A DNA stretch of 64,000 nt from an uncultured Latescibacterota bacterium. GTDB lineage: Bacteria > Latescibacterota > UBA2968. Positions 40,694 through 56,993 of this stretch are shown here, one piece after another. Each line of letters opens with the position of its first letter. The first letter of the stretch is position 1. The translations under genes were made by a program, and so were the position numbers. The stretch is from assembly GCA_951812755.1 (NCBI GenBank), contig OX638329.1, positions 2,465,339 through 2,529,338 on the forward strand, in the 5' to 3' direction. The notes under the pieces were generated by a model. It was not told the DNA's origin. It worked only from the letters and a program-made list of their open reading frames with translations, and did not search any database.

Positions 40694-40798
40694 ACGCAGA
40701 TGAAAAGAGGGGCTGTGAATTGGGAAGGATGAAGTGAGACGTAGGGGCGAAAATTTTTTCGCCCGTCCATAATGTAGGGGCAACCTTCGTGGTTGCCC
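40681..40798. repeat. CGCAGATGAA repeat plus two GTAGGGGC hairpins
   Basis: CCGCAGATGAACGCAGATGA, then GGGCGAAA / TTTCGCCC (40745-40764) and GGGCAACC / GGTTGCCC (40778-40798 with TTCGT loop). Both hairpins follow GTAG. The NHL stop codon is inside the first part. Confidence 0.85.
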
Positions 40799-50192: not shown

Positions 50193-50196
50193 GCAG

Positions 50197-50244
50197 GGGC
50201 GGGTTGAACTGCTGTCGCAGTTGTACATCGCTCAAAACCCGCCC
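50197..50244. repeat. Two-tier palindrome, copy 2
   Basis: Outer arms GGGCGGGTT (50197-50205) / AACCCGCCC (50236-50244), inner arms AACTGC / GCAGTT (50207-50222), followed by GTAC. Same architecture as 53303-53366. Confidence 0.85.
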
Positions 50245-50267
50245 GTACATCAGCATCCGACAAGAGA

Positions 50268-52118: not shown

Positions 52119-53306
52119 ATGGCGTCTATTTTTGAACAGTTGGGCGTACGTATTATTATCAATGCTGCTGGGCCAGTTACGCGTTTGAGCGGGGCGCGCA
52201 TGGACGAGGATGTGATTGATGCCATGCGCGAGGCTGCGCAGGTGTGTGTGGATATTGCAGAGCTACAGGCGGGGGCAGGGCAGTTGATTGCCGAGGTGAC
52301 AGGTGCCGAAGCCGGGTATGTGACATCGGGTGCTGCGGCGGGTCTGGTGCTTGCGACGGCGGCGTGTGTTACGGGTATGGATCCGGGAAAGATGAACCGA
52401 TTGCCCGATACATCGGGGATGAAAAATGAGGTGATTATGCCCCGGTCACATCGCAATTTTTACGATCACGCGGTGCGTTCGGTGGGCGTGACGCTCATCG
52501 AGGTGGGTATTCCAGATCGGTTTAGTGGCGCGGGGGTGCGCGATACAGAGGCTTGGGAAATTGTCGATGCGATGACCGATCAAACCTCGGCGATTGTTTA
52601 TGTGGCGCAGTCTTTCGCACAACCGCCTTTGCCACAGGTGACGGCTGTGGCGCACAAACACGGCGTGCCGGTCATTGTCGATGCTGCTGGGCAGTTGCCG
52701 CCAGCGGCAAATTTGAAGCGGTTTGTCAGCGAAGGTGCCGATGCGGTTTGTTTTAGTGGCGGTAAAACTATTGGCGGGCCTCAAGGGGCGGGCATTTTGT
52801 GCGGTCGCCGCGATCTGATCTCCGCAGCCGCATTGCAGCATCTCGATCTGGATGTGTATTATGATTTATGGGATCCTCCGCCTGCGTTGATCGATAAATC
52901 TGCGTTGCCAGGTGCGCCGCAGCACGGAATTGGGCGACCGTGCAAGGTGGGGAAAGAGCAGATTGCGGGTCTGATGGTTGCGCTGCAAAAGTTCGTGGCA
53001 GAGAGCGACGAGGCGCGGCAGTCTCGCTGGTCGCAGTGCCTTCAGGGTTTGGCAGACGCGATAGGCGATTTGCCGGGGTGCGATATTAGCATGGATGCCT
53101 ACCGCACAATACCCATTTTGCGACTCGCGCTTTCTCCGGCGGAAAGAGGCGTGGAGGTGGCGCGGCAATTAATGGAAGGTGATCCGAGTATTCATGTGAG
53201 TACATCGGGCGTTTATGATGGCGTATTGACTTTTAATCCCATGTGTTTGTCAGAAGATATGATCAAACCGATTGCTGATCGGCTAAAAGTGTTGATTATC
53301 CGGTAG
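52119..53306 (+). CDS. SelA-like PLP-dependent enzyme
   Basis: 395 residues of the selenocysteine-synthase/DgaE-like class of fold-type I PLP enzymes. RIIINAAGPVTRLSGA is the family start, YVTSGAAAGLVLATAA holds the phosphate region, VIVDAAGQLPP supplies the ring-stacking Asp, and SGGKTIGGPQGAG carries the Schiff-base lysine. The SelA tRNA-binding N-terminal region is absent, so a beta-elimination or amino-sugar lyase role (as in D-glucosaminate-6-phosphate ammonia-lyase) is more likely than selenium chemistry. AGAGGGG precedes the ATG. Confidence 0.85.
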   Translation: MASIFEQLGVRIIINAAGPVTRLSGARMDEDVIDAMREAAQVCVDIAELQAGAGQLIAEVTGAEAGYVTSGAAAGLVLATAACVTGMDPGKMNRLPDTSGMKNEVIMPRSHRNFYDHAVRSVGVTLIEVGIPDRFSGAGVRDTEAWEIVDAMTDQTSAIVYVAQSFAQPPLPQVTAVAHKHGVPVIVDAAGQLPPAANLKRFVSEGADAVCFSGGKTIGGPQGAGILCGRRDLISAAALQHLDLDVYYDLWDPPPALIDKSALPGAPQHGIGRPCKVGKEQIAGLMVALQKFVAESDEARQSRWSQCLQGLADAIGDLPGCDISMDAYRTIPILRLALSPAERGVEVARQLMEGDPSIHVSTSGVYDGVLTFNPMCLSEDMIKPIADRLKVLIIR

Positions 53307-53366
53307 GCGCGGGTTGAACTGGCCTGAGAGGCGGCCAGTTGTACCTCACTCGAAACCCGGGCCTAC
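53303..53366. repeat. Two-tier palindrome, copy 3
   Basis: Outer arms GTAGGCGCGGGTT (53303-53315) and AACCCGGGCCTAC (53354-53366) with one mismatch; inner AACTGGCC (53317-53324) and GGCCAGTT (53333-53340), then GTAC. It starts in the stop region of the PLP gene and ends 28 bp before the next ATG. Confidence 0.9.
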
Positions 53367-54105: not shown

Positions 54106-54128
54106 TCGCAGATGAACACAGATTGTAG

Positions 54129-54155
54129 GGGCGAGGCATGCCTCGCCCTTCTTTT
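54129..54155. terminator. Palindromic terminator
   Basis: Perfect palindrome GGGCGAGGCA|TGCCTCGCCC (54129-54148) after GTAG, then TTCTTTTTT on plus. It separates convergent genes; the gdh stop is 8 bp away. Confidence 0.85.
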
Positions 54156-55629: not shown

Positions 55630-56529
55630 TTATCCGCTTTTAAGCAGATGGCGCAGGGCTGGCTCAAGGTGGGGATGGGCAAAGGAGAAGCTGGTGTTTT
55701 CGAGGCGTGAAGAGATAACGCGGGTGCTGGCGAGTAAGAGGGCATCGGCCATTTCGCCCAGTGCGAGTTTGGCGGCAAATGCGGGTAGCGGAAAAATTGT
55801 TGGGCGAGATAAGACGCGACCGAGGGTTTTGGTAAATTCGCGATTGGTGACAGGCGTTGGAGATACGACGTTGATTGCACTGCTGATGGATTCGTTGTCT
55901 ATTGCAAAGAGGAATAGAGAGACCAGGTCGTCAAGGGTGATCCAACTCATGTATTGATTGCCCGATCCGATGATGCCGCCCAATCCCAATTTGAAGGGCA
56001 AGAGCATTTTGCCGAGTGCTCCACCTGTGGGGGACAGAACAAGGCCGATGCGGGGGTGAACGGTTCGTATGCCGGCTTCTGTGGCGGGTTTGGCGGCGTT
56101 TTCCCAGGCGATGGATACGTCGGGGAGAAAGCCTGATCCGGGTTGGCTCTCTTCGGTGAGGATTTCGTCGTGGCGGTTGCCGTAATAACCGATGGCAGAA
56201 GCGGAGATGAAGACTTTTGGCAGCGGAGATATAGACGCGAGTGTTTGGGCGAGCAGTGTGGTGCCCTGTACTCGACTGTCGCGGATGCGCGCCTTTTGCG
56301 CTGAGGTCCAGCGTCGGGAGGCGATGTTTTCTCCTGCGAGGTGTATGACGCCATCTATGTTGGTGAGGCGCGAGGGGTCAAGGGTATTAGAAGATGGATC
56401 CCATGTGATTTCACTGTCGTTGCGGGCATTGCCCCGGGTGAGAGATAAGACGCGATCACCACGCGCGCTCAGTGCGGTTTTGAGTGCCGAGCCGATGAGG
56501 CCAGAAGCACCGGATATCAGGATTTTCAT
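55630..56529 (-). CDS. TIGR01777-family NAD-dependent epimerase (YfcH-like)
   Basis: 299 residues. Starts ILISGASGLIGSALKTALSA (GxxGxxG), then VIHLAGENIASRRWT, SASAIGYYG (catalytic Tyr region) and a DUF1731 C-terminal PAFAAKLALGEMADALLLAS. Role in bacteria is uncertain; relatives act in cell-division placement or ornithine-derived pigments in plastids. The ATG at 56529 has no adjacent ribosome site; AGGAGGGG is instead about 32 nt upstream, separated by a perfect hairpin. Confidence 0.87.
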   Translation of the reverse strand: MKILISGASGLIGSALKTALSARGDRVLSLTRGNARNDSEITWDPSSNTLDPSRLTNIDGVIHLAGENIASRRWTSAQKARIRDSRVQGTTLLAQTLASISPLPKVFISASAIGYYGNRHDEILTEESQPGSGFLPDVSIAWENAAKPATEAGIRTVHPRIGLVLSPTGGALGKMLLPFKLGLGGIIGSGNQYMSWITLDDLVSLFLFAIDNESISSAINVVSPTPVTNREFTKTLGRVLSRPTIFPLPAFAAKLALGEMADALLLASTRVISSRLENTSFSFAHPHLEPALRHLLKSG

Positions 56530-56539
56530 GATTGGGTAC

Positions 56540-56566
56540 GGGCGGGTTTGAAACCCGCCCCTCCTA
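56540..56566 (-). promoter_or_regulatory. Hairpin between Shine-Dalgarno and start codon of the epimerase gene
   Basis: On the minus strand TAGGAGG is followed by GGGCGGGTT-TCA-AACCCGCCC (56540-56560), then GTACCCAATC-ATG. Folding of the 9-bp stem would bring the ribosome site to about 10 nt from the ATG. Confidence 0.55.
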
Positions 56567-56582
56567 TTTTTTAAAATCCGCC

Positions 56583-56993
56583 CTATTTATACAGCATCAG
56601 ATAGATGATGACGCCTGTAATTGAGACAAATATCCAACTGGGCCAAACCCATCGGGCCAGGCGGCGGTGGCGATTAAATTCGCCTTTGTAGGCTCGCCAG
56701 ACGAGCGCGATGATGAAGGGCACATTGACGGCGGCGAGGATGATGTGCGGGATGAGTATGGCAAAGTAGATCGGGCGCGTCCAATCGCGGTGTGGATAGG
56801 GCACAGAGCCGACCTGACTGTGATAGATAAGGTATGAGGTCAGAAAGAGAGCCGACAAGATCAACGCTGTGACCATGCATTTCTGATGCGTTTTGATGTC
56901 GCCGCGTTTGATATAGATGAATCCCAACAGAAGAAAGATGGTGCAAAGTCCGTTGAGGATGGCGTTTGTCGTGGGCAAGTCTGTGATGGACAT
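56583..56993 (-). CDS. DUF420 membrane protein
   Basis: 136 residues, four TM helices: NAILNGLCTIFLLLGFIYI, MVTALILSALFLTSYLIY, IPHIILAAVNVPFIIALVW and WVWPSWIFVSITGVIIYLM. Histidines in HQKCMV, YHSQVG and IPHIIL are conserved in DUF420, a family near cytochrome-oxidase assembly (YozB/CtaM-like). ATG at 56993. It follows the metalloprotease gene by 8 bp on the same strand, but no oxidase gene is here. Confidence 0.88.
   Translation of the reverse strand: MSITDLPTTNAILNGLCTIFLLLGFIYIKRGDIKTHQKCMVTALILSALFLTSYLIYHSQVGSVPYPHRDWTRPIYFAILIPHIILAAVNVPFIIALVWRAYKGEFNRHRRLARWVWPSWIFVSITGVIIYLMLYK

Follow-up and report, generated by a model that had tools for sequence, protein, structure and literature searches.

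GTAG-tagged REPs form a superfamily in which RAYT cleaves at GTAG, as set out in passages of Di Nocera et al. (2013, PMC3733652), where many families comprise 20-100 units; the same superfamily is treated in passages of Nunvar et al. (2010, PMC2817692). A second described system is the split ribosome-binding site of phage T4. According to the portion consulted of PMC3014915, a hairpin between the Shine-Dalgarno (SD) site and the AUG would shorten the spacing from 27 to 11 nt in gene 25, and from 22 to 5 nt in gene 38; these split sites are common to T-even phages and have been reporter-tested.

The locus studied here lies in the window (the whole stretch of 64,000 nucleotides that was analysed), in the minus-strand spacer between a DUF420 gene and an epimerase-like gene, and shares features with both systems. 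Like the GTAG-tagged REPs, its hairpin belongs to short GC-rich palindromes with a 3-nt loop and a one-sided GTAG head, which lie mostly between genes, and the genome holds several such families together with a RAYT-like gene. The family size of 27 also falls within the range given in the passages of PMC3733652. It differs in that the head of the window copy reads GGAG, and in that the genome's RAYT-like gene carries another REP type. Like the hairpins of T4 genes 25 and 38, the stem would bring an SD-like motif closer to the start codon, from 30 to 10 nt; however, the motif in the window belongs to the repeat, and the case is limited to one species and known from sequence. The hairpin is quite probably a GTAG-tagged REP copy, tolerated in a leader that would not need a strong SD, the SD-like motif arising mostly from the element itself. 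The features of the site are as follows.

56540-56560, plus strand: hairpin arms, GGGCGGGTTTGAAACCCGCCC, two perfect 10-nt arms with 1 base between them
56536-56564, minus strand: GTAG-class REP copy (head, hairpin and right flank), as assigned from the 27-copy alignment and stem pairing
56564-56561, minus strand: head of the REP copy, GGAG
56560-56540, minus strand: hairpin of the REP copy, GGGCGGGTTTCAAACCCGCCC
56539-56536, minus strand: right flank of the REP copy, GTAC
56560-56565, minus strand: AGGAGG, SD-like motif, overlapping the head of the REP (GGAG) and the base at which its stem begins
56529-56527, minus strand: ATG of the epimerase-like gene
55630-56529, minus strand: downstream gene, TIGR01777/YfcH-family epimerase-like oxidoreductase (TIGR01777, E 2.6e-97, model 1-292)
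56583-56993, minus strand: upstream co-directional gene, DUF420 protein (Pfam DUF420, E 1.5e-43)
56567-56585, minus strand: TAGGGCGGATTTTAAAAAA, candidate decayed second REP half, picked out by eye and overlapping the DUF420 stop TAG (56585-56583)

The perfect hairpin reported before the epimerase start by the first-pass annotation is real, with one match in the window at up to 3 mismatches as compared to a shuffle mean of 0.01, and its 21-nt core is predicted to fold as 9 bp with a 3-nt loop. Downstream of the DUF420 stop the minus-strand spacer reads ...AAAAAATAGGAGGGGCGGGTTTCAAACCCGCCCGTACCCAATC-ATG. The last G of AGGAGG (56565-56560) is the first base of the stem, so that the motif is composed of the element head GGAG (GTAG in the family), flanked by one base of the stem and one outside it. 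The gap between AGGAGG and the ATG was counted as 30 nt instead of the 32 nt first given, while the estimate of about 10 nt once the stem is removed holds, 10 nt of the gap lying outside the stem. The ATG at 56529 is sound, since the encoded protein matches TIGR01777 from model position 1; on this ground a mis-called start was rejected, and no start further downstream is indicated. The protein also matches Epimerase and DUF1731 of Pfam. TAGGGCGGATTTTAAAAAA is perhaps a decayed second half of the REP, as its likeness by eye to the family's left arm plus loop (GGGCGGGTTTTAAA) would suggest.

The palindrome is dispersed through the genome. The 21-mer has 6 exact places in 6,530,187 bases (one contig) and 27 places at up to 3 mismatches, the window copy included, as compared to none for the reversed pattern. 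Alignment of the 27 copies gives the consensus GTAG-GGGCGGGTTTNAAACCCGCCC-GTAC. The head beside the stem is GTAG in 17 copies, GTAG one base further out in 2 and a one-base variant in 8, a count that leans upward because the script oriented each copy so as to favour GTAG on the left. The variant heads are ATAG (2), GTTG (2), GGAG (2), GCAG (1) and GTAC (1); GTAG is therefore the head of the family, while the window copy has GGAG instead. The right flank is GTAC in 10 copies, CTAC in 8 and other letters in 9.

Conservation of the stem as a paired structure is evident from its changes. Standard pairs account for 97.9% of stem cells across the 26 distinct rows, as compared to 93.4 in shuffles (0 of 500 as high), and 10 stem cells are changed on both sides, as compared to 1.3 (0 of 500 reaching 10). 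Two measures of covariation are weak, namely the 3 of 9 pairs changed on both sides, a value reached by 34 of 500 shuffles, and the number of further pair types, of which 146 of 500 shuffles gave as many. In 17 of the 26 distinct rows no pair forms between the final base of the head and the base opposite it. Copies are mostly intergenic, 20 lying outside and 7 inside naive ORFs of at least 100 aa, and the 26 hairpin places other than that of the window occur in varied gene contexts.

A wider pattern, GTAGGGGC-gap-GCCC, gave 145 matches on both strands, symmetrical hairpins being counted twice, as compared to 34 for the reversed control. Several inner stem types occur among the matches listed, which suggests the presence of several GTAG families in the genome. 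A blind scan of 200 kb for tags beside stems, with few copies in range, did not recover GTAG as the commonest tag (3 of 148 edges; CTGG 6 and GTAC 5). Within the window, three further GTAG-headed hairpins with other inner stems are located at 40741-40764, 40774-40798 and 54125-54148. Two REP-like copies, at 50193-50248 and 53303-53366, hold a second palindrome (GAACTG...CAGTTGTAC with a short tail) within the loop; at the place of the 53303-53366 copy, congener G006 has an uninterrupted REP. Among the matches listed, which extend to near 5.14 Mb, GTAGGGGC hairpins are crowded at about 0.70-0.83 Mb of C1 of the window's own genome (G000), mostly in one orientation. Another copy (L013) lies 7 nt before a probable ATG, judged from the reading frame, of an ABC-transporter-like gene, and no SD core is in view before that ATG.

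Beyond the species, 31 of the 60 genomes searched (own included) hold a match to the 21-mer with no more than 3 mismatches. The counts for the own genome and 10 congeners are 27, 10, 15, 3, 10, 9, 7, 3, 1, 6 and 4, respectively, with none for the reversed control in any of these; the control matched in 7 genomes outside the genus. The word 'Latescibacter' does not occur in the main texts of PMC3733652 and PMC12306157, and a literature search with the letters of the palindrome returned papers on unrelated subjects in every case.

The transposase side of the system was approached through profile and protein searches. Pfam Y1_Tnp has no match in the own genome, yet the idea of a genome devoid of such a transposase had to be abandoned, as a RAYT-like protein of a congener (L170/L177), used as the query, matches an own gene (L182, C1:5586920-5587498) with E 4.3e-42 and 52% identity. 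The congener protein itself scores 29.6 bits with Y1_Tnp, above the cut-off of that model, and 65.2 bits (E 5.6e-18) with NF047646, below the 80-bit cut-off; the own gene likewise matches NF047646 below the curated cut-off. Inside its ORF the own gene holds GTAGGGGCGAAA...TTTCGCCCCTAC; similar hairpins border it on either side, and those in and around the gene have the GTAG tag. The REP type in and around it is GGGGCGAAA...TTTCGCCCC, other than that of the window, so the sole RAYT-like gene found in the genome is flanked by a different REP type. The congener gene L177 carries GTAGGCGCGGGTTTCAAACCCGCGCCTAC, a variant of the window's type, within its ORF. The sequences suggest that the window family is likely to be mobilised by RAYT.

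A GTAG-tagged hairpin (stem of at least 7 bp) inside the ORF, between the HUH and tyrosine motifs, was observed in RAYT-like genes of the phylum. It occurs in 13 of 15 distinct RAYT-like ORFs that pass a motif filter (42 loci), and is absent in L185 and L193; the loci concerned are L182 of the own genome, L177-L188, L209 and L212. The background of GTAG hairpins in coding DNA is about 0.005 per 210 coding bases, as counted in two stretches. The inner hairpin is identical to a flanking one in L178, L181 and L187, and nearly so, or in its core, in L182. Among plasmid relatives (5 matches, of which 4 were covered) it was present in 1 (Monoglobus, L222). Passages of PMC3733652, PMC6006769 and PMC8266576 contain no description of this in-ORF hairpin.

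The history of the site was read from the DUF420-epimerase junction of 8 congener genomes (L019-L026). The count excludes G008, which has a different upstream neighbour and GGAG 6 nt before its ATG, and G010, which has no epimerase match; the named records L078-L081 and L118 duplicate leaders already counted and were not added. The window palindrome is absent from all 8 junctions, a presence/absence variation at orthologous sites as known from GTAG-tagged REPs. Five of the spacers are short and without a palindrome, and three (L019, L021 and L026) hold other GTAG palindromes. Comparison of 200 kb of the own genome with 147.5 kb of congener G006 displayed many small spacer differences. At the expected right edge of the element G009 reads GTACCCAAT and G001 reads GCACCCAAT, which could be the native target or the remnant of a lost copy.

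None of the SD cores AGGAGG, GGAGG, AGGAG, GAGG, GGAG and AGGA is found within 40 nt of the ATG at any of the 8 congener junctions. Earlier, a palindrome inserted behind a ribosome site had been proposed. The insertion part of this proposal survives, as evident from the dispersed nature of the element and its absence from the congeners; the SD-first order is unsupported, since no SD core is present at the congener junctions, and the element's head shares bases with AGGAG. The sequence comparison suggests that the SD-like motif would have arrived with the element, with no sign of a palindrome inserted behind a pre-existing SD. The comparison with homologous loci proposed at that stage yields congeners devoid of both this palindrome and an SD core. 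The further suggestion that the palindrome is tolerated because it folds is not needed, since the gene persists in the congeners with no SD core before it, and the use of SD in the genome is partial. In 200 kb of the genome, an SD core stands 4-13 nt from the first ATG in 56 of the 153 ORFs that reach 200 aa, probably an undercount because the first ATG of each ORF was taken as its start; for an interval placed 50 nt further upstream the figure is 13 of 153.

The alternative that survives best is a split ribosome-binding site, in which the AGGAG of the REP head would act as the SD, the stem folding the spacer away and leaving the SD about 10 nt from the ATG. The REP would then have landed in a lineage deprived of its ancestral AGGAGG and its head changed from GTAG to GGAG, giving a working ribosome site whose spacing to the start is set by the element's own stem. 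This is unlikely. The geometry is that of T4 gene 25, with 30 nt reduced to 10 nt on folding, and the stem is predicted to be very stable; as a hairpin-bridged SD is known from genes 25 and 38 (in the portion consulted of PMC3014915), such an arrangement could work. In the window species, the 40 nt before the ATG also contain no SD core besides AGGAGG. Moreover, outside the genus, five f2 genomes (L028 and L030-L033, 5 of 6 genomes being covered, with L029 of G020 left out) and L037 of the same family have AGGAGG with a spacing of 6 nt to the ATG, and an SD before the epimerase gene is therefore probably ancestral and would have been lost in this genus. TTCGAAAGTTGACA, which precedes the ATG in G009, is missing by eye from the window genome (the MAFFT alignment places the gaps otherwise); together with AGGAGG as the sole SD core of the leader, this would fit recruitment and counts against neutrality.

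Against recruitment, the arrangement is confined to a single species, none of the 8 congeners that share the junction having an SD core, and L052, the second copy with a GGAG head, is located between 3' ends according to ORF calls. In the predicted leader, the GGA of the head pairs with the U-CC of the right-flank GUACC, and GGATTTT of TAGGGCGGATTTTAAAAAA pairs with AAAATCC of codons 2-4 to form an outer helix. Around the ATG the mean unpaired probability is 0.62, as compared to 0.47 to 0.73 in seven congener leaders, and for AGGAG it is 0.43; the predicted folding therefore suggests neither a clear help nor a clear block to translation.

A transcription terminator or attenuator between the DUF420 and epimerase genes is highly improbable. 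A simple scan listed the plus strand, antisense to both genes, as terminator-like, with the stem followed by CTCCTATTTT; this T-rich tail is confined to the antisense side, and in the gene direction the stem is followed by GTACCCAATC without a T run. The element is also found in many contexts and is built like a REP. An RNA thermometer or other cis-acting switch whose melting exposes the ribosome site, the temperature-sensitive switch of the first-pass annotation, is barely credible: an initiation-region hairpin is indeed present with an extension predicted to pair partly with the SD-like motif, but the hairpin is predicted to be too stable to melt within the growth range (-16.2 kcal/mol at 37 C, still -10.5 kcal/mol at 60 C), similar hairpins occupy the 26 other places, and Rfam at its gathering threshold matches only a tRNA across the window, with none at the hairpin.

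The preferred reading, a tolerated GTAG-tagged REP copy, may be stated as a sequence of steps. The REP would be non-autonomous, its spread probably due to a single-strand transposase of the RAYT type, and would have entered the short DUF420-epimerase spacer, most simply in the species' own lineage. A T to G change would have turned the head GTAG into GGAG, which with its neighbouring bases gives AGGAGG, an apparent ribosome site. The epimerase gene probably starts independently of AGGAGG, by weak or SD-independent initiation, perhaps aided by the nearby DUF420 stop, and the REP copy would be tolerated in its leader.

The spacer position also recalls REPs that follow stop codons. Liang et al. 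are said to have found in 2015 that REPs near stop codons affect translation. The window hairpin likewise lies in a spacer after a stop codon; it differs in that it begins 22 nt beyond the DUF420 stop and is adjacent to the start codon that follows. REP-linked ribosome stalling is mentioned in PMC12306157.

The GGAG head may have weakened recognition by the transposase, freezing the copy. This we only infer, because GGAG is not among the head changes in the passages of PMC8266576, in which the S. maltophilia enzyme cut altered heads less well or not at all (GCAG being barely cut), while with the Marinomonas enzyme the cleavage site was shifted instead.

These observations add Latescibacterota material to the known GTAG superfamily. 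They also indicate that the tag of a repeat can by itself mimic a Shine-Dalgarno site, and leaders in repeat-rich genomes can therefore be misread. If AGGAGG is used, the locus would provide a natural example of a gene that owes its ribosome site to a mobile element.
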